A DNA stretch of 64,000 bases from Phycisphaeraceae bacterium (lineage in GTDB: Bacteria; Planctomycetota; Phycisphaerae; Phycisphaerales; UBA1924): the NCBI GenBank assembly GCA_007693965.1, contig RECQ01000042.1:1-64000 (forward strand), written 5' to 3'. The stretch's first letter is position 1. Each line of letters opens with the position of its first letter. Below the pieces are notes generated by a model. The model did no database searches and was not told the DNA's origin. It saw only the letters and a program-made list of their open reading frames with translations. Below are positions 33,080 through 45,098 of the stretch, one piece after another. Position numbers and translations under genes: made by a program.

Positions 33080-33235
33080 ACCGGCATTCTTCACCGGTAT
33101 GTTGTTTCACTCCAGGCGATGTTGAACGGAGGCGCCGACCGCTCAGGGCAGCGGTCGGCGGCGCGGCGTGCCATGAATTCATGCTCCGAGTGCGGGATTT
33201 CGAGCTGATCTCACGCAACTGAATTGCGCCCACCA

Positions 33236-33512
33236 GACGCCGAGGCTGAGTCTGCCAAGCCTCGGGAAGTGGGCGCGTCGCTTCGAGATGACGCAGGTCG
33301 CGAGGGGCGCCTTTGTGGAGATTCTGGCTGTCTCTCCGAGCGACCGAGGCTTCGTCGAAGACTCCTCAGCCTCGGCGTCTGGTTGTTCGCTGCCGGAGGG
33401 TAGTGGAGCGCTGGTGTGGAGACGCCGTCGCAGGCGTCGATCGCAGCTTTCCGCAGTTTTTTTCGCGCTTCGCAGTGCGATGAAACGCCGAGGCTGAGTC
33501 TGCGAAGCCTCG
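33236..33512. repeat. Composite palindromic repeat A (element, spacer, partial element)
   Basis: Element A1 (33236-33379) has terminal inverted arms starting GACGCCGAGGCTGAG and ending CTCAGCCTCGGCGTC. A spacer of about 100 nt (33380-33482, containing GGAGCGCTGGTGTGGAGACG) and a second, cut-short element (33485-33512) follow. The whole unit is repeated in the same order and orientation at 34979-35410. Confidence 0.75.
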
Positions 33513-33595
33513 GGAAGTGGGCGTCCGAGCCGGGCGAAGTGAAGTCACCAGACCCTCTCCGCCGATCGTGCGTAGAAGAAGGCAGGAGGAACTCG

Positions 33596-34252
33596 ATGGC
33601 GGGACGGGCCTGTGGAATTCGCACGGTTCTCGGCTTCACGGCGTGCGCGATGGGGCTGTTCTTCGGGCTGTCATCGCTTGCGATGGCTGCATCCTCGCAT
33701 TGGCGGCCCGTGGCGACGCCGAAGTGGGATCGGGACGATGCGACGTTTGACCAGTCGCGCGATCGACCTTCCGGCTGGAAGCTCGCGGGCTGGTGCATGG
33801 CATCAAACACCGACCATCTCTCCCTGAGCGAAACTGGCTCCTGCTTCTATGGGAGCCGATCGGAGCCGGATCTGACGGCGCCAGGCGTCAGGCTCTTTGC
33901 CGAGTCCAGTGATGAGGCGCGGGCGATCTCGTTCCGGTATTGCGAGCGCTCGCAGCAGCTCATCCACATCGCATCTGTGGCCGATCCGGTCGGGCTGCTG
34001 GCCGGAAACGGCAAAGTCGCGCTATTCGCGCAGACTCCATATCGAAAGTCGTACTTCATCATCATTCACTCGGCGTTCTTGTGGAGCCTTGGAGCGGCGT
34101 CGCTCCTGTGCGCTGTGCCAGTGTGGCGGACGATCCGGCCGTGGAGGCGACGGAGGCGCGGGCTGTGCATGCGGTGCGGGTACGATCTGCGCGAGCTCGC
34201 GATCGGCGCACGCTGTCCGGAGTGCGGACACGGCGACGCTTGTCCAGAATGA
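33596..34252 (+). CDS. Membrane protein with C-terminal zinc ribbon
   Basis: A 218-aa protein with two hydrophobic segments: an N-terminal one (about 9-33) and a second near residues 155-180 (YFIIIHSAFLWSLGAASLLC). An Arg-rich linker (RRRRR) then leads to a cytoplasmic zinc ribbon CMRCGYDLRELAIGARCPECG. This layout is widespread in planctomycetes; the function is unknown. AGGAGG sits 5 nt before the ATG at 33596; upstream in-frame codons belong to the repeat. It has a paralogue in the next gene and the two are framed by composite repeats A and B. Confidence 0.7.
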   Translation: MAGRACGIRTVLGFTACAMGLFFGLSSLAMAASSHWRPVATPKWDRDDATFDQSRDRPSGWKLAGWCMASNTDHLSLSETGSCFYGSRSEPDLTAPGVRLFAESSDEARAISFRYCERSQQLIHIASVADPVGLLAGNGKVALFAQTPYRKSYFIIIHSAFLWSLGAASLLCAVPVWRTIRPWRRRRRGLCMRCGYDLRELAIGARCPECGHGDACPE

Positions 34253-34330
34253 ATCGGGCCACATATGCTCAGATCTGAGAGAGAGCGAAAGGCAGCGTCC
34301 AGAGAGTCGAACCCCGACGACTCAAACCGC

Positions 34331-35053
34331 ATGCATCGCAATGACTTGAAGTTGCTCGCCGTCGGGGCGCTGTTCCTGGGCTTCGCCCTCGCCATGCATG
34401 CGATTCGTGGCGAGTGGCCGTCGGGATTCGCGACCGCTACACCAGAAATCCTGGGGGAAACTCGGTATGCAACGGTGCTTTCCTGGGAGTTCGTATCAGA
34501 CAGGAAATCCTTTCAAATGGGGTCGATGCAGGTCGTAGGATGGAAGTATCTTGTCACTTTCGAGCCCCGAATTGAGATATTCGGATTCCGACTCTGGCGC
34601 ACCCATTGCGACGGCGCCATGCTGCAATGGGAGCCGAGCGCAGGGCCACAGGGGATTCGCAGCGCTGTTCTCGACCCGGTTGCGATCCAGATTCGCAGAG
34701 GCCGAATGACATTTGGTTGGCGATTCGAACATGGCTCGACATGGATCGTCAGCTTCTCCTCAACGCCGTTCTGGCTGCTCGGCTCCCTCGTGTTCATCTT
34801 CGCCATCACATCGATGGCCGTGCGGCTCTGGCGGGGAGCGCCAGCGGGGCATTGCCCGTACTGCCATTACGATCTTGGCGGACTCGGCAAAGGCGCCAGA
34901 TGCCCGGAATGCGGTGGACGCACGGCGCTCACCGACCGTCAACAAAACCTTCGTCGGCGCGCCCCATCACTCGATCAAGGCTCCGAGGCTGCGTCTGCGC
35001 AGCCTCGGGAAGTCGGCGCGATGTCTCGGGGTGAGCGGGAAGCCTCGGGTTGA
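34331..35053 (+). CDS. Paralogous membrane protein with zinc ribbon
   Basis: A 240-aa protein with the same plan as its upstream neighbour: N-terminal hydrophobic segment (LKLLAVGALFLGFALAM), extracytoplasmic domain with VVGWKYLVTFEPRIEIFGFRLW, a second TM (PFWLLGSLVFIFAITSMAV) and the zinc ribbon CPYCHYDLGGLGKGARCPECGG. The last 30 or so residues are encoded by composite repeat B, so the natural stop has probably been replaced by repeat sequence. The start is uncertain: ATG 34331 is chosen to begin near the TM, but 34265 is also in frame. Its composition is slightly poorer in GC than flanking genes. Confidence 0.62.
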   Translation: MHRNDLKLLAVGALFLGFALAMHAIRGEWPSGFATATPEILGETRYATVLSWEFVSDRKSFQMGSMQVVGWKYLVTFEPRIEIFGFRLWRTHCDGAMLQWEPSAGPQGIRSAVLDPVAIQIRRGRMTFGWRFEHGSTWIVSFSSTPFWLLGSLVFIFAITSMAVRLWRGAPAGHCPYCHYDLGGLGKGARCPECGGRTALTDRQQNLRRRAPSLDQGSEAASAQPREVGAMSRGEREASG

Positions 35054-35410
35054 GCGACAGTCGCGACGGGCGCCGGTGTGGAGATTCTGGCTGGCTCTCC
35101 GGGCGTCCGAGGCTTCGTCGAAGACTCCTCAGCCTCGGCGTCTGGTTGTACGCTGCTGAAGGGTTGTGGAGCGCTGGTGTGGAGACGCCGTCGCAGACGC
35201 CGACCGCTGCTGTCTTCAATTTTTTCGCGCTGCACAGTGCGATGAGACGCCGAGGCTGAGTCTGCGAAGCCTCGGGAAGTGGGCGCAATGCCTCGATGTG
35301 AGCAGGAAGCCTCGGGTTGAGCGACAGTCGCGACGGGCGCCGGTGTGGAGAATCTGGCTGTCTCTCCGGGCCTCCGAGGCTTCGTCGAAGACTCCTCAGC
35401 CTCGGCGTCT
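34979..35410. repeat. Composite palindromic repeat B (element, spacer, element)
   Basis: Elements at 34979-35142 and 35246-35410 share arms CCGAGGCTGAGTCTGCGAAG and CCGAGGCTTCGTCGAAGACT with repeat A. The spacer 35143-35245 matches the spacer of A (GGAGCGCTGGTGTGGAGACG; CAGTGCGATGA). It overlaps the 3' end of the preceding gene. Confidence 0.75.
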
Positions 35411-35437
35411 GTGTCGCTATCCTCTTCATCACTCAAC

Positions 35438-38428: not shown

Positions 38429-41400
38429 ATGCTGACCACGCCTTCATACTCGCCCGATGCGCCCCTGATCGGGGGCGGCCTGACGCTCGAATCGAACCTG
38501 TCGGCGATCGGCGCCGCCTCGCCGCACATCGTGGCGATGCTGCGCCAGACGGATGCGGCGCCGGGGATCGAGTTCATCCCGACTGAGGACAACGGCGCCC
38601 TGAGCGCCATGATGGACGGAAAGGCCCTCGCCAGCCGGCGCCGCCCGCTTGAGGAAGCGAAGCGGCTGGCGGAGACGGTGGATCTGCGCAAAGCGGGCGC
38701 GGTGGTGGTGATGGGCTTCGGGCTCGGCCACCACGTGGCGGCGCTGGCGAAGCGGATGAAGCGCGAGGGGATCATCATCGTCTACGAGCCGGATCTGCGG
38801 CTGCTTCGGGCGGCGATGGAGCGGATTGACCATGGCTCCTGGCTGCGCGAGAGCAACGTCGTCTTCCTGACGGATGCGGAAGACACGGCTTCGATGTCGG
38901 CGCTCCTCAACGGCGCGGAGGGCGTGCTCGCGATGGGAGTACACATTCTCGAGCACCCGCCCAGCCGCTCGAGGCTTGGCGACAGCGCCCGACGCTTCGG
39001 AGTGAACTTCTCGGGGCTGGTCACTTCCGTGCGCACGACGGTCGTCACCACGATGGTGCAGACCGAAGTCACGATGCGCAACCTCTTCATGAACGCAGAC
39101 CATTACTGCCTGCGCGCCGGTGTCGCTGACCTGGCGGGGGCGTGCGCCGGGCGTCCTGCGATCGTGGTGTCCGCGGGTCCGAGCCTGGAGCGGAACATTC
39201 ACCTGCTGAAGACTCCGGGGGTGCGCGAGCGGGTGGTGATCATCGCGGTGCAGACGACGCTCAAGACCCTGCTCGCGATGGGCGTGAAGCCGCACTTCGT
39301 GACGGCGCTGGATTATCACGAGATCAGCCGGAGGTTCTACGAAGGATTGACCGAGTCGGATGTCGAGGGCGTGACGCTGGTGGCGGAGCCGAAGGCGAAC
39401 CCGGCGATTCTTGATGCGTTTCCCGGCGCGATCCGCTGCGCGGGCGATGGGCTGCTGGACAGAGCGCTGGGCGAGGAGCTGGCCGGCGAGCACGGCGATC
39501 TGACGCCGGGGGCGACGGTGGCGCACCTGGCGTATTACCTGGCGCGTCATCTCGGGTGCGACCCGGTGGCGCTGATCGGTCAGGATCTGGGCTTCACCGA
39601 CGGGCAGTATTACTCGGCGGGCGCCGCCATTCATGATGTGTGGGCGTGCGAGCTGAACTCGTTCAACACGCTGGAGATGATGGAGTGGCAGCGGATCGCG
39701 CGGGCGAAGTCGATGCTGCGTCGGGCCACCGACCATCTCGGGCGTCCGGTGTATACCGATGAGCAGATGTCAACGTACCTGGCGCAATTCGAGCGCGATT
39801 TCAAGGCCGATGCGCAGCGCGGACTGACGACGATCGACGCCACCGAGGGAGGCGTGGCCAAAGCGCAGACGCGTCCTATGGCGCTGTCAGATTTTCTCGA
39901 ACGACATGCGGGGCCCGACGCCCCCCTGCTGCCGGCGCTTGCGCCGGCTGCGCCTGCGGGGGAGGCGTCGATGCGCGCGGGGGCGCGCAAGCGGCTCGAT
40001 GAGGTTCGCCGCGGCGTGGTGCGAATGGGAGCGCTGAGCCGGCAGACCGCATCGCTGCTGGAGCGAATCCGGGAGAACCACGGCGATCAGAAGCTGGTGA
40101 ACAAGCTGATCGCGCAGGTGAACCGCATCCGCGACGAGGTGCAGGCGATCGACCCCGGCTACGAGCTGGTGCAGAAGCTGAACCAGACGGGCGCCTTCAA
40201 GCGAGCCCGGGCCGACCGCGAGCTGCGGCTGGAGGCGGGGCTGACCGCGCTCGAGACGCAGCGGCGACAGATCGATCGCGATGCAATGAACGTCCGCTGG
40301 CTCGCAGAGGCTGCGGATGCGATGGCGGAGATTCTCGAAGAAGCCTGCAAGGCGCTGGACGGCGCACCGAAGCGCACGCGCGATGTGTCGCGCGGGGAGA
40401 TTGCGTCGATCGATTCACCGGATGGCGCCGGAGAACGCAAGAACGCGCCGTCGCGGCGGGCCACGCGCCGGATCGGCGCGGTGATTCCCGTGGAGCTCGA
40501 GCGCACGGCGCTGGGAACCCGGCGCGATCAGGGCGCGACGTTCCTCGGGCGCCATCCGCTCCGGGCAACGCTGGAGCGGCTGGCGCGTTGCAGGCGGCTG
40601 GACCGCGTTGTGTTGCTCACGGATGCGCCGGAAGCGCTCGAGCGCATCGTGCGGCCGGAGATCCGGGGATTGCGGATCGAGATCGTCGCGACGGAGGGGC
40701 CGCCGCTGGGCAGGCGGGTCGAGGGATTGCGCGGGGCGCGGCTGTGGACGGACAACTCTTGGCGGGGCGGGCTGGGCTCGTTCACGTGCTTCGACGAGGC
40801 GCTGGCGCCGGAGGCGACGGCCGCGGCCCTGGAGCGGTTCGATCTGGACGGGGCCCTGCTGGTGGGCGCGGACTGGTGCCTGGTTGATCCCGAGTTGTGC
40901 GACGCCGTGATCGAGCGGCACCTGGAGCGTCCGGAGAAGCACCGGGTGTCTTTTTCGCAGGCGCCGCCGGGGCTGGCGGGGTGCGTGATCGAGCGCGGGC
41001 TGGTGACGGACCTCGCGGCGACGATGGACAAGGGTGGGAGTTTCGCGAGCGTGGCGGGCCTCTTGGGATATGTGCCGGTGAAGCCGCAGGCGGACCCGAT
41101 CGCGCATCCGATGTGCGCGCCGGTGTCGCCATTGGTGCGCGACACGCTCTTCCGGTGCATTCCCGATTCGGCGCCGCGGCGGGTGATGCTGGAGCAGGCG
41201 ATGCTGCTCATCGCGGGCGATCGCGGCTGGAGCGCGGTGGTGGAGGCGGATGCGGAGACGATCGCGCAGGCGATCCGTGAGCGCATGCGCGATATGCCGA
41301 CGGGGCTGCCCAAGCAGACCATCGTCGAGCTGTGCCCGGGGAGGCGCTCGCTCGGGCGGCGGGTGGAGTGGCTGTGGCCGGGCGGCGATGTCGTCGAGCG

Positions 41401-42127
41401 TCCGGTGATGACGCGCGAGCTGGCGGACCGGATTTTCACAGCGCTGGGTGAAGAGCGGAACGACGCGGTCGTCGACTTCGCGGGATTCGGCGACCCCCTG
41501 CTGCATCCGGAGTGCATCGAGTTCGTGAAACTTGCGAAGGATTGCGGCGTGGCGGGCGTGCATGTGCGCACGGATCTGCTGTGCGATGAGGCGACGGTCG
41601 ATGCGCTGCTGGAGAGCGGCGTGGACATCGTCAGCGTCGACCTGATGGCGCAGACGGCGGAGACGTATCGCGCGATCATGGGGCAGGATGCGTACAAGAC
41701 CGTGCTGACGAACGTCGATCGGCTGCTGAATGGCCGCACGAGCAACGGCGGCCTGCCGACGCCGTGGATTGCGCCGCGGATCACGCGGTGTGATGCGGTG
41801 TACGAGGAGATCGAGTCGTTCTTCGACAAGTGGCTGCTGCTGGCGGGGGCGGCGGTGATCGACCAGGCGCCGCGGGCGATCGAGGGCGAGCGGATCAGGC
41901 CGCTGGGCAAGCCGAATGCGGCGAAGCGGCGCGACTGGCGCAGCCGGATGATGGTGCTGTCGGACGGCGCGGTCGTGGTTGATGAGCGCGATGCGGCGGG
42001 CGAGGGGGCGATCGGGAACCTGACGGATGAGCCCTTGGGAACGGTGTGGAGGCGACTGCTGGAGCGGCGCCGGGATACATGGCGGCGCGAGGGGTATGGT
42101 CATGCAGACTTGTGGACGGGGTGGTGA
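38429..42127 (+). CDS. MAF-type glycosyltransferase fused to degenerate SpsF-like and radical SAM/SPASM-like domains
   Basis: A 1232-aa fusion. Residues about 60-560 match motility accessory factor (MAF/DUF115) glycosyltransferases, which transfer nonulosonic acids to flagellin: VMGFGLGHHVAAL, PAIVVSAGPSLERNI near 240-255, TALDYHEIS, and VALIGQDLGFTDGQYY near 385. Helical segments follow. About 679-930 resembles SpsF/KDO-cytidylyltransferases (GRHPLRATLERLARCRRLDRVVLLTD) but lacks their RxGSxRLPGK substrate loop. About 955-1170 has a radical SAM barrel pattern (FAGFGDPLLHPECIEF, SGVDIVSVDLMAQTAETYRAIMG) without the CxxxCxxC cluster motif. The C-terminus (SDGAVVVDERDAAG...GNLTDEPLGTVWR) is SPASM-like with no cysteines. 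It is followed by neuA, neuB and neuC. Confidence 0.83.
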   Translation: MLTTPSYSPDAPLIGGGLTLESNLSAIGAASPHIVAMLRQTDAAPGIEFIPTEDNGALSAMMDGKALASRRRPLEEAKRLAETVDLRKAGAVVVMGFGLGHHVAALAKRMKREGIIIVYEPDLRLLRAAMERIDHGSWLRESNVVFLTDAEDTASMSALLNGAEGVLAMGVHILEHPPSRSRLGDSARRFGVNFSGLVTSVRTTVVTTMVQTEVTMRNLFMNADHYCLRAGVADLAGACAGRPAIVVSAGPSLERNIHLLKTPGVRERVVIIAVQTTLKTLLAMGVKPHFVTALDYHEISRRFYEGLTESDVEGVTLVAEPKANPAILDAFPGAIRCAGDGLLDRALGEELAGEHGDLTPGATVAHLAYYLARHLGCDPVALIGQDLGFTDGQYYSAGAAIHDVWACELNSFNTLEMMEWQRIARAKSMLRRATDHLGRPVYTDEQMSTYLAQFERDFKADAQRGLTTIDATEGGVAKAQTRPMALSDFLERHAGPDAPLLPALAPAAPAGEASMRAGARKRLDEVRRGVVRMGALSRQTASLLERIRENHGDQKLVNKLIAQVNRIRDEVQAIDPGYELVQKLNQTGAFKRARADRELRLEAGLTALETQRRQIDRDAMNVRWLAEAADAMAEILEEACKALDGAPKRTRDVSRGEIASIDSPDGAGERKNAPSRRATRRIGAVIPVELERTALGTRRDQGATFLGRHPLRATLERLARCRRLDRVVLLTDAPEALERIVRPEIRGLRIEIVATEGPPLGRRVEGLRGARLWTDNSWRGGLGSFTCFDEALAPEATAAALERFDLDGALLVGADWCLVDPELCDAVIERHLERPEKHRVSFSQAPPGLAGCVIERGLVTDLAATMDKGGSFASVAGLLGYVPVKPQADPIAHPMCAPVSPLVRDTLFRCIPDSAPRRVMLEQAMLLIAGDRGWSAVVEADAETIAQAIRERMRDMPTGLPKQTIVELCPGRRSLGRRVEWLWPGGDVVERPVMTRELADRIFTALGEERNDAVVDFAGFGDPLLHPECIEFVKLAKDCGVAGVHVRTDLLCDEATVDALLESGVDIVSVDLMAQTAETYRAIMGQDAYKTVLTNVDRLLNGRTSNGGLPTPWIAPRITRCDAVYEEIESFFDKWLLLAGAAVIDQAPRAIEGERIRPLGKPNAAKRRDWRSRMMVLSDGAVVVDERDAAGEGAIGNLTDEPLGTVWRRLLERRRDTWRREGYGHADLWTGW

Positions 42128-42147: not shown

Positions 42148-42879
42148 ATGAGAGCGCTTGGACTCATACTCGGGAGGGCCGGAAGCAAGGGGTTGCCGGG
42201 GAAGAACCTCGCGATGATCGCGGGACGGGAGTGCGTGCGCTGGACGATCGACGACGCGGTGCAGGCGAAGTCACTGGCGCGGCTGGCGCTTTCCTCGGAC
42301 TCGGTGGAGCTGCAGCGGATCGCGCTGGAGTCGGGTCTGGACGCGGTGGCGCGGCCGGATGAGCTGGCGAGCGACAAGGCGACCGTCGACGCGGCGGCAC
42401 GGCACGCGGTGGAGTCGCTGGGCGACGACGGGCTCGACTCGGTGGTGATTCTGTACGCCAACGCGCCGGTGCGCCCGCCGGGGCTGATCGACCGTGCGGT
42501 GCGCATTTTCGAGGAGACGGGCGCCGACTCGGTGCAGAGCTACGCGCCGGTGGGCAAGCATCATCCGTGGTGGATGGCGCGGGTGGATCCTTCCTCGGGT
42601 CGTGTGGATCCGTGGGAGGGCGATGTGCTGAACAAGGGCGTGTATCGGAGGCAGGAATTGCCGCCGGCGTTCGTGCCGGACGGGGGCGTGCTGGTCGTGC
42701 GCCGGCGGGCGCTGTTCCTGGAGGTCGATGGTGTGGACCGTTCCAGCCCCCACGCGTTCTTCGGGCGGGAGATGCGAGGCGTGATCAATGAAGCGGGGGC
42801 GGTGGTCGATATCGATGATCGGATCGATCTGCTGGTGGCGGATGCGATTCTGCGCGAGCGAACCTCGGGCGTTCTCTGA
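42148..42879 (+). CDS. neuA: CMP-nonulosonate (sialic/legionaminic acid) cytidylyltransferase NeuA
   Basis: Activates a nonulosonic acid with CTP to give the CMP-sugar donor for glycosyltransfer. The CTP-binding signature GRAGSKGLPGKN is intact at the N-terminus (residues 8-19); further motifs are LARLALSSDSVELQRIA, VILYANAPVRPPGLIDRA, HHPWWMARVD and the metal-binding DIDDRIDLLVAD near the end. It has 243 aa, the usual length. GGAG precedes the ATG; the earlier in-frame start lies within the MAF gene. The gap from MAF is 20 nt and to neuB 12 nt, indicating one operon. Whether the sugar is Neu5Ac, legionaminic or pseudaminic acid cannot be read from this gene alone. Confidence 0.9.
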   Translation: MRALGLILGRAGSKGLPGKNLAMIAGRECVRWTIDDAVQAKSLARLALSSDSVELQRIALESGLDAVARPDELASDKATVDAAARHAVESLGDDGLDSVVILYANAPVRPPGLIDRAVRIFEETGADSVQSYAPVGKHHPWWMARVDPSSGRVDPWEGDVLNKGVYRRQELPPAFVPDGGVLVVRRRALFLEVDGVDRSSPHAFFGREMRGVINEAGAVVDIDDRIDLLVADAILRERTSGVL

Positions 42880-42891
42880 AGGGGAAGCCTC

Positions 42892-43953
42892 ATGGCGAAT
42901 GAATCGCTGGAGAGCAGCGGACCGGGGCGGACGCTGGTGATCGCCGAGATCGGTGTGAACCATGATGGTTCGCGCGGGCGGGGGCTTGAGCTTGTGGACG
43001 CCGCGGCGGAGGCGGGGGCGGACGCGGTGAAGCTGCAGATCTTCGAAGCGGCGCGGCTGCTGGGCGCCGGCGCCGGGCTGGCGACGTACCAGGCGAATTC
43101 GGGCGAAACGAATGCGGCGGCGATGCTCGAGCGACTCGAACTCTCGATCGACGATGCGCGGGCGCTGGTGAACCGGGCCAGGGAGCGCGGCCTGCTGGCG
43201 ATCGCGACGGTCTTCAGCGTGGAGCTGGTCGAGGCGACGGAGGGATTGGGGCTGGATGCCTACAAGACGGCCTCGCCCGACATCGTGCATCGGCCGCTGA
43301 TCGAGCGACTGGCGCACACGGGCAAGCCGCTGATCATGAGCACGGGCGGGGCGGAGATGGATGAGGTGAAGCGTGCGGCGGGGTGGGCGCGGGAAGCCGA
43401 CGCGAAGCCGCCCTTGACGCTGCTGCACTGCGTGAGCAGCTACCCGACGAAGGATGACGATGCGAGCCTGAATGGCGTGCGGGCGCTGGGGGAAGTTTTT
43501 TGCGGGGATGGGGCGACGGGGTTGCGGGCGCTGGTGGGGTACAGCGATCACACGCAGTCGGTGGATACGGGGGCGCTGGCGGTCGCCGCGGGCGCGAGTG
43601 CGCTGGAGAAGCACCTGACGCATGACCGCTCAGCGCCGGGCCCGGACCACGCGGCGTCGCTGGATCCGGGGCAGTTCGCTGAATATGTGCGCCTGGTGCG
43701 CCGAGCGGAGCAAATGCTGGGGCCGGTGGGCAAGCGCGTGCAGGCGTGCGAGCGCGAGGTGATGGCGGCGGCGCGGCAGTCGATCACGAGCGCGAGAACG
43801 ATCGAGGCGGGAGCGCGCATTGAAGCGAAGGATGTGACGGTGAAGCGCCCCGGGACTGGGCTCGAGCCGTGGCGGATGGAGGATGTGGTGGGGCGCACCG
43901 CTGCGGGCCGGATCGAGGCGGATGCGCCGATCCGCGAGGAGGATCTGAAGTGA
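42892..43953 (+). CDS. neuB: Nonulosonic acid synthase NeuB
   Basis: Condenses phosphoenolpyruvate with an N-acyl hexosamine (ManNAc or the legionaminic precursor) to form the nine-carbon acid. The TIM-barrel motifs are complete: IAEIGVNHDGSRGRGLELVDAAAEAGADAVKLQ split over residues 14-46, YKTASPDIVHRPLI, PLIMSTGGAEMDEV, LLHCVSSYPTK, GYSDHTQ and EKHLTHDRSAPGPDHAASL. A C-terminal SAF/antifreeze-like domain (ARQSITSARTIEAGARIEAKDVTVKRPGTGL) caps the partner active site. It has 353 aa. A GAAGGGGAAG ribosome site lies before the ATG. Its stop overlaps the GTG start of neuC. Confidence 0.94.
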   Translation: MANESLESSGPGRTLVIAEIGVNHDGSRGRGLELVDAAAEAGADAVKLQIFEAARLLGAGAGLATYQANSGETNAAAMLERLELSIDDARALVNRARERGLLAIATVFSVELVEATEGLGLDAYKTASPDIVHRPLIERLAHTGKPLIMSTGGAEMDEVKRAAGWAREADAKPPLTLLHCVSSYPTKDDDASLNGVRALGEVFCGDGATGLRALVGYSDHTQSVDTGALAVAAGASALEKHLTHDRSAPGPDHAASLDPGQFAEYVRLVRRAEQMLGPVGKRVQACEREVMAAARQSITSARTIEAGARIEAKDVTVKRPGTGLEPWRMEDVVGRTAAGRIEADAPIREEDLK

Positions 43954-45098
43954 CGGCGACGGAGCGGCAGCGCATCGCGGTGGTGACCGGATCGCGGGCG
44001 GAGTTCGGCCTGCTGGCGCCGGTGATGCGCGCCATCGAGGCGCATGCGGGGCTGGAGCTGCGCGTGATCGTGGCCGGCGCCCACCTGCTGGCGCCGGCCC
44101 GCACCGGGCGCGAGGTGGCGGCAGCGTTTCGTGTGGATGCGGAAGTCGAGATGCAAATGGATGGGCAATCGGGGCGGGCGGCGGATGCGCTGGCGCTGGG
44201 GCGCGGGGTGGCGGGGTTCGCGCGGGCGCTGGTCGAAATCGATCCGGACTGGACGGTGGTTCTCGGCGATCGCATCGAGCCGATGGCGGCGGCGTGCGCG
44301 GCGAGCGTGGGCGGGTTTCCGCTGGCGCACCTGCACGGCGGCGACCGGGCCGAGGGCGTGGCGGACGAGGCAATGCGCCACGCGATCAGCAAGCTGGCCC
44401 ACCTGCATTTTCCGGCGACGGAGCAGTCGCGCGAGCGGTTGGTGCGGATGGGGGAAGATCCGCAGCGCGTGCATGTGGTGGGATCGCCGGCGATGGACGG
44501 GCTGGCGGATGTTGCGATGATGAACGATGCGGAGGCGGCGGAGCTCGGCGATCCGGACACGGTGTTTCTGATGCACCCGGTCGGGGCGAGCGCCGAGACG
44601 GAGTTTGCGAACGCTTCGTGTGCGCTGGAGGCGCTGCGCGGGCGGCGCGTGCTGGCGCTGGCGCCGAATCACGATCCGGGGCGCGAGGGGATCGTGCGGG
44701 CAATCGAGGAATCGGGCGTGCGCATTGAGGCGCACCTGGCGCGAGAGCGGTTCGTCGGGCTGCTGAAGCGGTTGAGCGAACGCGGCGGGCTGCTGGTGGG
44801 GAACAGCTCAGCTGGGCTGATCGAGGCGGCGGCGCTGCGCGTTCCGGCCGTGAACATCGGGCGGCGGCAGAACGGGCGAGAGCGGGGCACGAACGTGGTG
44901 GATGTCGAAAGCGGCGCATCAATCGACGGTGTGCGAGGAGCGCTGGAATCGGCGCTGAAGATTGATCGCACCGGCATCACGCATCCCTTCGGCGACGGTC
45001 GGACGGGGGAGCGCGTGGCGAACATTCTCGCGAAACTGGACAAAGCGCGGGAAGCCGATGCGCGGGCGGAGATTCTGAGAAAGCGATGCACGCACTGA
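43950..45098 (+). CDS. neuC: UDP-N-acetylglucosamine 2-epimerase (hydrolysing) NeuC
   Basis: Makes the hexosamine precursor (ManNAc or an analogue) from a UDP-GlcNAc-type nucleotide sugar. The GT-B-type epimerase features are VVTGSRAEFGLLAPVM at the N-terminus, LVEIDPDWTVVLGDRIEPMAAA, LAHLHGGDRAEGVADEAMRHAISKLAHLHF, VHVVGSPAMD, LAPNHDPGREG and LLVGNSSAGLIEAAALRVPAVNIGRRQNGRERG. It starts with GTG overlapping the neuB stop (GTGA), preceded by GAGGAGGA; an upstream ATG frame is a shadow. It has 382 aa, full length. Together NeuC, NeuB and NeuA form the minimal set for Neu5Ac; LegB/LegC/LegH-type genes for legionaminate are not in the window. Confidence 0.93.
   Translation: MTATERQRIAVVTGSRAEFGLLAPVMRAIEAHAGLELRVIVAGAHLLAPARTGREVAAAFRVDAEVEMQMDGQSGRAADALALGRGVAGFARALVEIDPDWTVVLGDRIEPMAAACAASVGGFPLAHLHGGDRAEGVADEAMRHAISKLAHLHFPATEQSRERLVRMGEDPQRVHVVGSPAMDGLADVAMMNDAEAAELGDPDTVFLMHPVGASAETEFANASCALEALRGRRVLALAPNHDPGREGIVRAIEESGVRIEAHLARERFVGLLKRLSERGGLLVGNSSAGLIEAAALRVPAVNIGRRQNGRERGTNVVDVESGASIDGVRGALESALKIDRTGITHPFGDGRTGERVANILAKLDKAREADARAEILRKRCTH

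Follow-up and report, generated by a model that had tools for sequence, protein, structure and literature searches.

A Maf-type glycosyltransferase carrying cytidylyltransferase and radical SAM folds without their catalytic signatures in a Phycisphaeraceae bacterium

Introduction

How Maf enzymes choose flagellin and the sugar that goes on it is an open question, and the locus described here raises it in a particular form: what is a Maf glycosyltransferase doing with two further domains that have the folds of enzymes and lack their catalytic signatures? The locus lies in the first 64,000 nucleotides of contig RECQ01000042.1 (assembly GCA_007693965.1, forward strand) of a Phycisphaeraceae bacterium of the class Phycisphaerae, phylum Planctomycetota; this whole stretch is called the window. 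An open reading frame (ORF) at 38429..42127 on the + strand, open throughout from ATG to stop, encodes a protein of 1232 residues. About 640 N-terminal residues make up the Maf part and about 590 extra residues hold a pseudo-cytidylyltransferase and a pseudo-radical-SAM/twitch domain. Maf enzymes put cytidine monophosphate (CMP)-activated nonulosonic acids on flagellin; the solved Maf has three domains, the C-terminal one being helical, and the functions of its N- and C-terminal domains are called unclear (PMC11339370). On balance, and with moderate confidence, we favour the view that a Maf glycosyltransferase acting on flagellin has here become one chain with the protein that usually accompanies it, a non-catalytic two-domain accessory in nonulosonic-acid glycosylation of flagellin. 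Since relatives keep the same domain pair as a separate gene beside Maf, the C-terminal half probably functions as a partner and is not a relic of decay.

Results

The N-terminal part is the normal Maf protein that the initial annotation, made from the sequence alone, had taken it to be. PF01973 matched the glycosyltransferase core (residues 218-391; 39080..39601) with E 8.3e-36 and 123.8 bits, for a Pfam gathering score of 34.6, and PF20157 matched residues 71-159 (E 2e-7) of the N-terminal domain (residues 1-215; 38429..39073). The Maf C-terminal region (residues 392-640; 39602..40348) is presumably helical by analogy with the solved enzyme (PMC11339370). It is followed at the fusion junction by a linker (residues 641-682; 40349..40474), where the gene boundary lies in unfused relatives. 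These features and all those given below are on the + strand.

The C-terminal half is predicted to have the fold of a CMP-sugar synthetase, then that of a radical SAM barrel with a twitch tail. An AlphaFold2 model of query residues 670-1232, built with 60 aligned sequences (query included), gave a predicted local distance difference test score (pLDDT) of 95 and a predicted template modelling score (pTM) of 0.94. Its first half resembled the Leptospira cytidylyltransferase 6oew (Z 20.1, root-mean-square deviation (rmsd) 3.0, 229/239 aligned), and its second half SuiB (Z 21.1, rmsd 2.8, 261 aligned) and MoaA (Z 20.4, rmsd 2.8, 243 aligned), besides other radical SAM enzymes; in BFVD, ordinary radical SAM proteins made up most of the best matches. 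The predicted model of an unfused relative, L054 (pLDDT 89, pTM 0.91), matched BtrN (Z 24.6, rmsd 2.3, 233/246 aligned) as well as 6oew (Z 21.3, rmsd 2.6, 220/238 aligned). BtrN was also found by sequence, using a profile of 27 unfused proteins (E 6.6e-10, four tail cysteines aligned). When 18 unfused nucleotidyltransferase domains were compared with the four CMP-sugar-synthetase-like proteins of the bacterium's own genome, hhalign returned a probability of 94% (E 1.4e-7) over 123 columns, which represent the first half of the domain.

Among Pfam profiles, Radical_SAM (PF04055) matched query residues 992-1100 with 30.3 bits (cut-off 29.5, E 5.6e-7), inside the barrel (residues 955-1148; 41291..41872), and tails of unfused relatives matched PF13186 (L049, for example, with E 4.7e-8). 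Nothing in Pfam passed its cut-off in the SpsF-like region of the query (residues 683-930; 40475..41218); the best family there was NTP_transf_3 with 15.8 bits, and its cut-off of 27 was passed by one unfused relative, L042 (34.2 bits). Neither the query nor five unfused relatives matched PF02348, even at E up to 10. Because model and profiles point alike to cytidylyltransferases, radical SAM enzymes and BtrN, the folds guessed in the initial annotation were right, and unrelated folds are set aside. Its SPASM-like end needs amending: the tail (residues 1149-1232; 41873..42124) indeed has no cluster cysteines, their positions reading R-D-gap-A, but in the models it is a half-SPASM (twitch) fold like that of BtrN and not a full SPASM domain.

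The SpsF-type RxGSxRLPGK loop, which we take to be the P-loop motif of these enzymes, is absent from the query, and the region reads VELERTALGTRRDQ. In the four synthetase-like proteins of the own genome, positions R9, S12, P16, G17 and K18 of the RxxSxRxPGK loop are invariant. Among the sequences displayed, many unfused relatives read LGLPS or LGLPSR where SpsF-type enzymes have RLPGK, and many fused relatives read LGxxR at the same position. The P-loop is thus degenerate rather than missing; the motif is absent as first annotated, but the loop is not entirely gone. Further along the domain, D815 aligns with the Asp of QGDEP in the profile alignment, and D913 falls outside that alignment; the two may correspond to the Mg-binding Asp pair.

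These residues bear on the alternative that the C-terminal half still catalyses a reaction, with changed chemistry. It could, for instance, be a sugar nucleotidyltransferase or transferase that binds phosphate through a non-canonical loop and provides or trims the sugar for Maf. Such an enzyme would account for D815 and D913 being kept in 40/42 and 41/42 fused sequences, respectively, and for LPSR persisting in the loop of some unfused relatives. It fits less well with the loss of loop positions that are invariant in the genome's own synthetase-like proteins, with the replacement of D815 in several deeper unfused homologues, and with a neuA-like gene next door whose loop is intact. We regard it as unlikely, and keep to a non-catalytic partner of Maf.

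Conservation was measured as mean pairwise identity among 42 fused sequences. It amounted to 60% in the Maf core, 41% and 44% in the N- and C-terminal Maf domains, 37% in the pseudo-cytidylyltransferase, 38% in the barrel and 26% in the tail. In the linker it fell to 18%, with 0/42 columns conserved at 90%. Nucleotidyltransferase residues kept in at least 40/42 fused sequences include R779, D789, D815, W816, F842, G848, R909 and D913; WRGG (778-781) and D889 are also conserved in the fused clade. The corresponding barrel residues include G1021, T1048, S1069, W1113, R1117 and R1120, and D1022 was present in 50/50 sequences of a first alignment. According to DSSP, the model has strands at 1014-1017, 1043-1048, 1067-1071 and 1113-1120, so placed that G1021 and D1022 come just after a strand, T1048 and R1120 sit at strand ends, and S1069, W1113 and R1117 lie within strands. 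Radical SAM enzymes bind ligands at strand ends. In the model, the conservation of the barrel suits a kept, putative pocket more than decay.

Alternatively, the role of the C-terminal half may be chiefly structural: as a scaffold or chaperone, it would keep flagellin close to Maf or determine the oligomeric state, and would bind no small molecule. The lost catalytic motifs agree with this, as does the tail, which is the least conserved folded part and, in the window's family, is missing from five fused proteins, L067-L070 (one genus) and L071. A purely structural module would, however, leave unexplained why R779, D789, R909 and D913, together with T1048, R1117 and R1120 of the barrel, look in the model like a retained pocket. 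This alternative, too, seems to us improbable beside an accessory that binds ligands. In L067-L070 (genomes G003, G013, G032 and G046) the start of the barrel is hard to align and the nucleotidyltransferase part is still recognisable.

Iron-sulfur ligands were then tabulated in 71 aligned sequences, query included (43 fused, 28 unfused). Left out were L031, L035 and L043 (contig ends), L063 (broken by a stop), L072 (whose end looks identical to that of L021 by eye) and L053 (own genome). The CxxxCxxC motif expected at the barrel start occurs in 0/71 of these sequences, and in 0/14 two-domain proteins outside the class (13 genomes) whose match covers both domains, among the matches listed. It is present in 6/6 relatives matching barrel and tail only (L103-L108, e.g. 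CNLRCPMC), which were fetched from many barrel-only relatives listed. The first two cysteine positions of CxxxC mostly read R and G, in the query R972 and G976. A radical SAM motif hidden elsewhere was looked for and rejected: the looser pattern C.{2,14}C.{1,5}C was found at residues 955-1000 in none of the 71 sequences, the stretch being partly gapped in L067-L070 and some others. The barrel without CxxxCxxC proposed in the initial annotation is thus confirmed, and its loss is conserved: no two-domain homologue with an intact motif was seen in either set. Since this loss is common to the homologues and the P-loop is degenerate, the query copy is not merely a decayed one. Because two-domain relatives outside the class lack the motif and barrel-only relatives have it, the catalytic radical SAM cluster was most likely lost in the ancestor of the two-domain family.

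The four cysteines of the twitch tail have another history. They are complete in 27/28 unfused proteins of the aligned set, L047 being an unfused protein with none, and in 14/14 two-domain relatives outside the class (same matches). Among the 43 fused proteins, 40 have no twitch cysteine, three have one and none has more. The radical SAM and SPASM cysteines were thus lost at different times, the auxiliary ligands outlasting the catalytic ones. A distant fused protein, L101 (123-3644, reverse-strand count), keeps all four, so that fusion and twitch-cysteine loss are separable. We claim no causal link between the two, because the tree of Maf sequences described below needs only one change.

The persistence of these cysteines after the radical SAM motif had gone could mean that a lone twitch cluster in unfused relatives serves electron transfer or the sensing of redox state or oxygen, a function that the query clade would have lost. 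As this would apply only to the proteins that have the cysteines, and as the cluster may be structural, we hold it to be quite unlikely; in the accessory role that we favour, the fused clade of the query would have dispensed with an auxiliary iron-sulfur cluster that was probably structural. That the C-terminal half is a degenerate passenger carried by read-through fusion, an idea to which the accumulated losses of the fused clade lend some colour (four-cysteine set absent in 43/43, tail missing in L067-L071), was already disfavoured and is very improbable, given that the losses are common to homologues, that the frame is kept in 42 fused sequences and that domain identity stands at 37-38% versus 18% for the linker.

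In order to follow the two parts across genomes, a scan was made with the whole query and gave 52 loci. Because Maf supplied four of the six peptides searched with, this count is biased and blind to C-terminal proteins (C-proteins) without Maf. A single ORF crosses the junction in 34/52 loci, some of them cut by contig ends, and two adjacent ORFs are present in 18/52. In a Maf tree of 74 proteins built with a quick method, one branch with a support of 99 splits 43 fused from 31 unfused proteins, so that a single fused/unfused change is required. The tree is unrooted for direction and leaves out L031, L035, L053, L072 and L079-L082, as well as any match spanning <220 residues; nine of its rows have under half of the columns filled, and L077 forms a very long branch of unsure place. 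Fusion would be the derived state, because outside the class Maf and the C-protein are separate in 8/9 loci showing both, among the matches listed.

Searches with the C-part family gave a complementary view. Within a class sample of 120 genomes, Maf lies directly upstream, fused or adjacent, in 12/12 best loci. The search gave 78 rows, of which 59 entered the count that follows; the 19 omitted were weak matches (<49 bits), and none of these shares a contig with a Maf match except one in G002, more than 2 Mb away. Of 58 Maf genomes in the sample, 43 encode the C-part within the Maf ORF or next to it, and in 7 others BLAST confirmed a C-half in an ORF as long as a fused one. Among the remaining 8, G115 has a C-protein that adjoins Maf and is cut by a contig end, and in G055, G009 and G019 the C-part match is on another contig than Maf. 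Outside the class, Maf is fused or nearby in 9/14 two-domain loci among the matches listed; PF20157 was too insensitive for a phylum census (7/246). By their distribution, then, the two domains are an old, often separate protein encoded beside Maf and not an ad hoc addition, and the partnership of Maf with the C-half is supported by fusion, gene neighbourhood and co-occurrence.

Several loci show intermediate or repeated arrangements. The ORFs for Maf and the C-protein share a frame in L025, L026 and L028, with one stop codon between them in the first two and a few codons in the third; these loci stand one step from fusion, though outside the fused clade on the Maf tree. Genome G289, of the same phylum, has two C-protein copies, one unfused beside Maf (L100:2512-4182) and one fused (L101), the latter fusion being apparently independent of that in the query clade.

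Comparison with known systems places the protein between families. With Maf/Maf_flag10 proteins it shares the N-domain, the PF01973 core and adjoining nonulosonic-acid genes, and differs from them by the added stretch that holds the two pseudo-domains. Of the NCBIfam models, TIGR04321 (spiro-SPASM) scored best with the C-half, at E 2.1e-18 and 66.3 bits (62.2 bits with the full protein), well under its cut-off of 250, which the best match in the class sample (158.4) does not reach either. The best relative covers profile positions 75-506 of 510, so that the domain order may be the same; the best stretch of the query covers only 260-486, and the query differs in having no cluster cysteines. The name of TIGR04321 suggests a restriction to spirochaetes. 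Treponema TPASS_0285 is listed as a SPASM iron-sulfur protein, and no Maf link is shown in the passage concerned (PMC4403809).

With BtrN and other twitch/SPASM enzymes the family shares barrel and tail folds, and unfused relatives align at the BtrN tail C..C..CxxC; unlike them, the query family has no CxxxCxxC and the query itself no twitch cysteines. CMP-sugar synthetases (SpsF, KdsB, NeuA; PF02348) have the fold in common, with the QGDEP-type Asp kept in the fused clade, but the P-loop of the query is degenerate. By its name, TIGR04347 (pseudo-SAM/SPASM, haloarchaeal by model name) is an earlier case of a radical SAM/SPASM protein that lacks the motif; it matched only weakly (12.5 bits, C-half 14.8, for a cut-off of 525), which shows no specific kinship. 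Despite its folds, the C-half therefore belongs with none of three classes, radical SAM enzymes, SPASM/twitch iron-sulfur proteins and cytidylyltransferases: their defining motifs, when tested, were not there. Judged by listings, the open-access literature searched yielded no account of a Maf, SpsF-like and radical SAM arrangement and no paper on 'spiro-SPASM'; the initial annotation's impression of an undescribed arrangement stands to that extent, with the reservation that TIGR04321 is a close database family. In a plasmid collection, six records matched the query at 23-26% identity, and none covers 80% of it.

Genes for nonulosonic-acid synthesis lie directly downstream of the fused ORF, so that two folds without catalytic signatures do share one frame beside neuABC, as first noted. 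A neuA-like CMP-nonulosonate synthetase gene of uncertain start (42148..42879) matched TIGR03584 PseF below cut-off (E 5.3e-15); its P-loop is intact, with RAGSKGLPGKN in the translation. A neuB-like nonulosonate synthase gene (42892..43953) matched TIGR03569 with E 5.5e-89 and 298.5 bits, for a cut-off of 399.65. A neuC-like UDP-N-acetylglucosamine 2-epimerase ORF, its start uncertain (43869..45098), matched TIGR03568 above cut-off (E 4.1e-88). At least one neu gene is seen in 48/52 loci, and in 46/48 a neuA-like gene is downstream. In L042:6297-8306, L045:10660-12552 and L052:11984-13732, neuA- and neuB-like sequences share one ORF, an apparent NeuA-NeuB fusion in the same island.

The genomes were also compared for flagellin, the presumed acceptor. 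In the class sample, flagellin was found in 58/59 genomes with a Maf match versus 29/61 without, kinship being ignored. The one exception, G102, gave a weak match, which was dropped from the tabulation of 58 genomes above together with weak second copies in G006, G080, G104 and G115. The own genome of the window has three flagellins and one weaker flagellin-type match.

Discussion

Taken together, these results suggest how a Maf protein with a built-in partner might work. Maf would transfer a CMP-activated nonulosonic acid, made by the products of the adjacent neuABC genes, to flagellin. The pseudo-cytidylyltransferase may hold, present or sense NeuA's CMP-sugar, the type of product that its own ancestor made, and would either hand it over to Maf or gate Maf. 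SPASM-type enzymes bind peptides, and the pseudo-radical-SAM/twitch barrel could accordingly bind the flagellin acceptor. The ligand of each pseudo-domain is here inferred from its fold only. Reuse of the C-half as a sugar- or acceptor-binding module, as initially proposed, is plausible.

Several observations weigh against an accessory dedicated to Maf and flagellin. The split of donor and acceptor between the two pseudo-domains is a guess and could be the reverse. No Maf was found at E 1e-5 near the two-domain protein in 5/14 phylum loci among the matches listed. G052, G101 and G039 carry the C-part on a contig other than that of Maf, with none in the stretch fetched downstream of Maf; in G068 its match is weak, partial and elsewhere (42.8 bits), and the contig ends about 0.7 kb past Maf. 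Flagellin does not require Maf, because 29/87 flagellin-bearing genomes of the class sample lack it. Finally, in genome G102, of the same order as the query, the fused protein (L077:386-3598) has a Maf part that is short and strongly diverged, flagellin was not matched, and neuA is absent from the 1.3 kb downstream; this version has perhaps turned to another target.

A broader proposal, which we put forward tentatively and with less confidence than the accessory role itself, is that the two domains represent a class of accessories to bacterial protein O-glycosylation that has so far escaped notice: a protein dedicated to Maf, in which the CMP-nonulosonate donor is read by one domain and the flagellin acceptor by the other. 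It would be ancient in Planctomycetota, would have joined Maf by fusion on at least two occasions and would be kin to the 'spiro-SPASM' proteins. If so, 'spiro-SPASM' proteins would be flagellin-glycosylation factors as well, which offers a testable role for that family. A conserved and sometimes fused partner, combining the fold of a sugar-nucleotide enzyme with one whose known members bind peptides or sugars, would also provide a concrete handle on the choice of flagellin and sugar by Maf enzymes, and a single lineage shows the stepwise loss of both iron-sulfur sites.

Additional observation

Elsewhere in the window, dispersed repeats lie upstream of argS (33210-35411), where they overlap and flank small ORFs. 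They comprise a 167-nt element in two copies (92%, at 34978 and 35245), a 166-nt element in two copies (89%, at 33297 and 35060) and a 66-nt element in four copies (61-100%).

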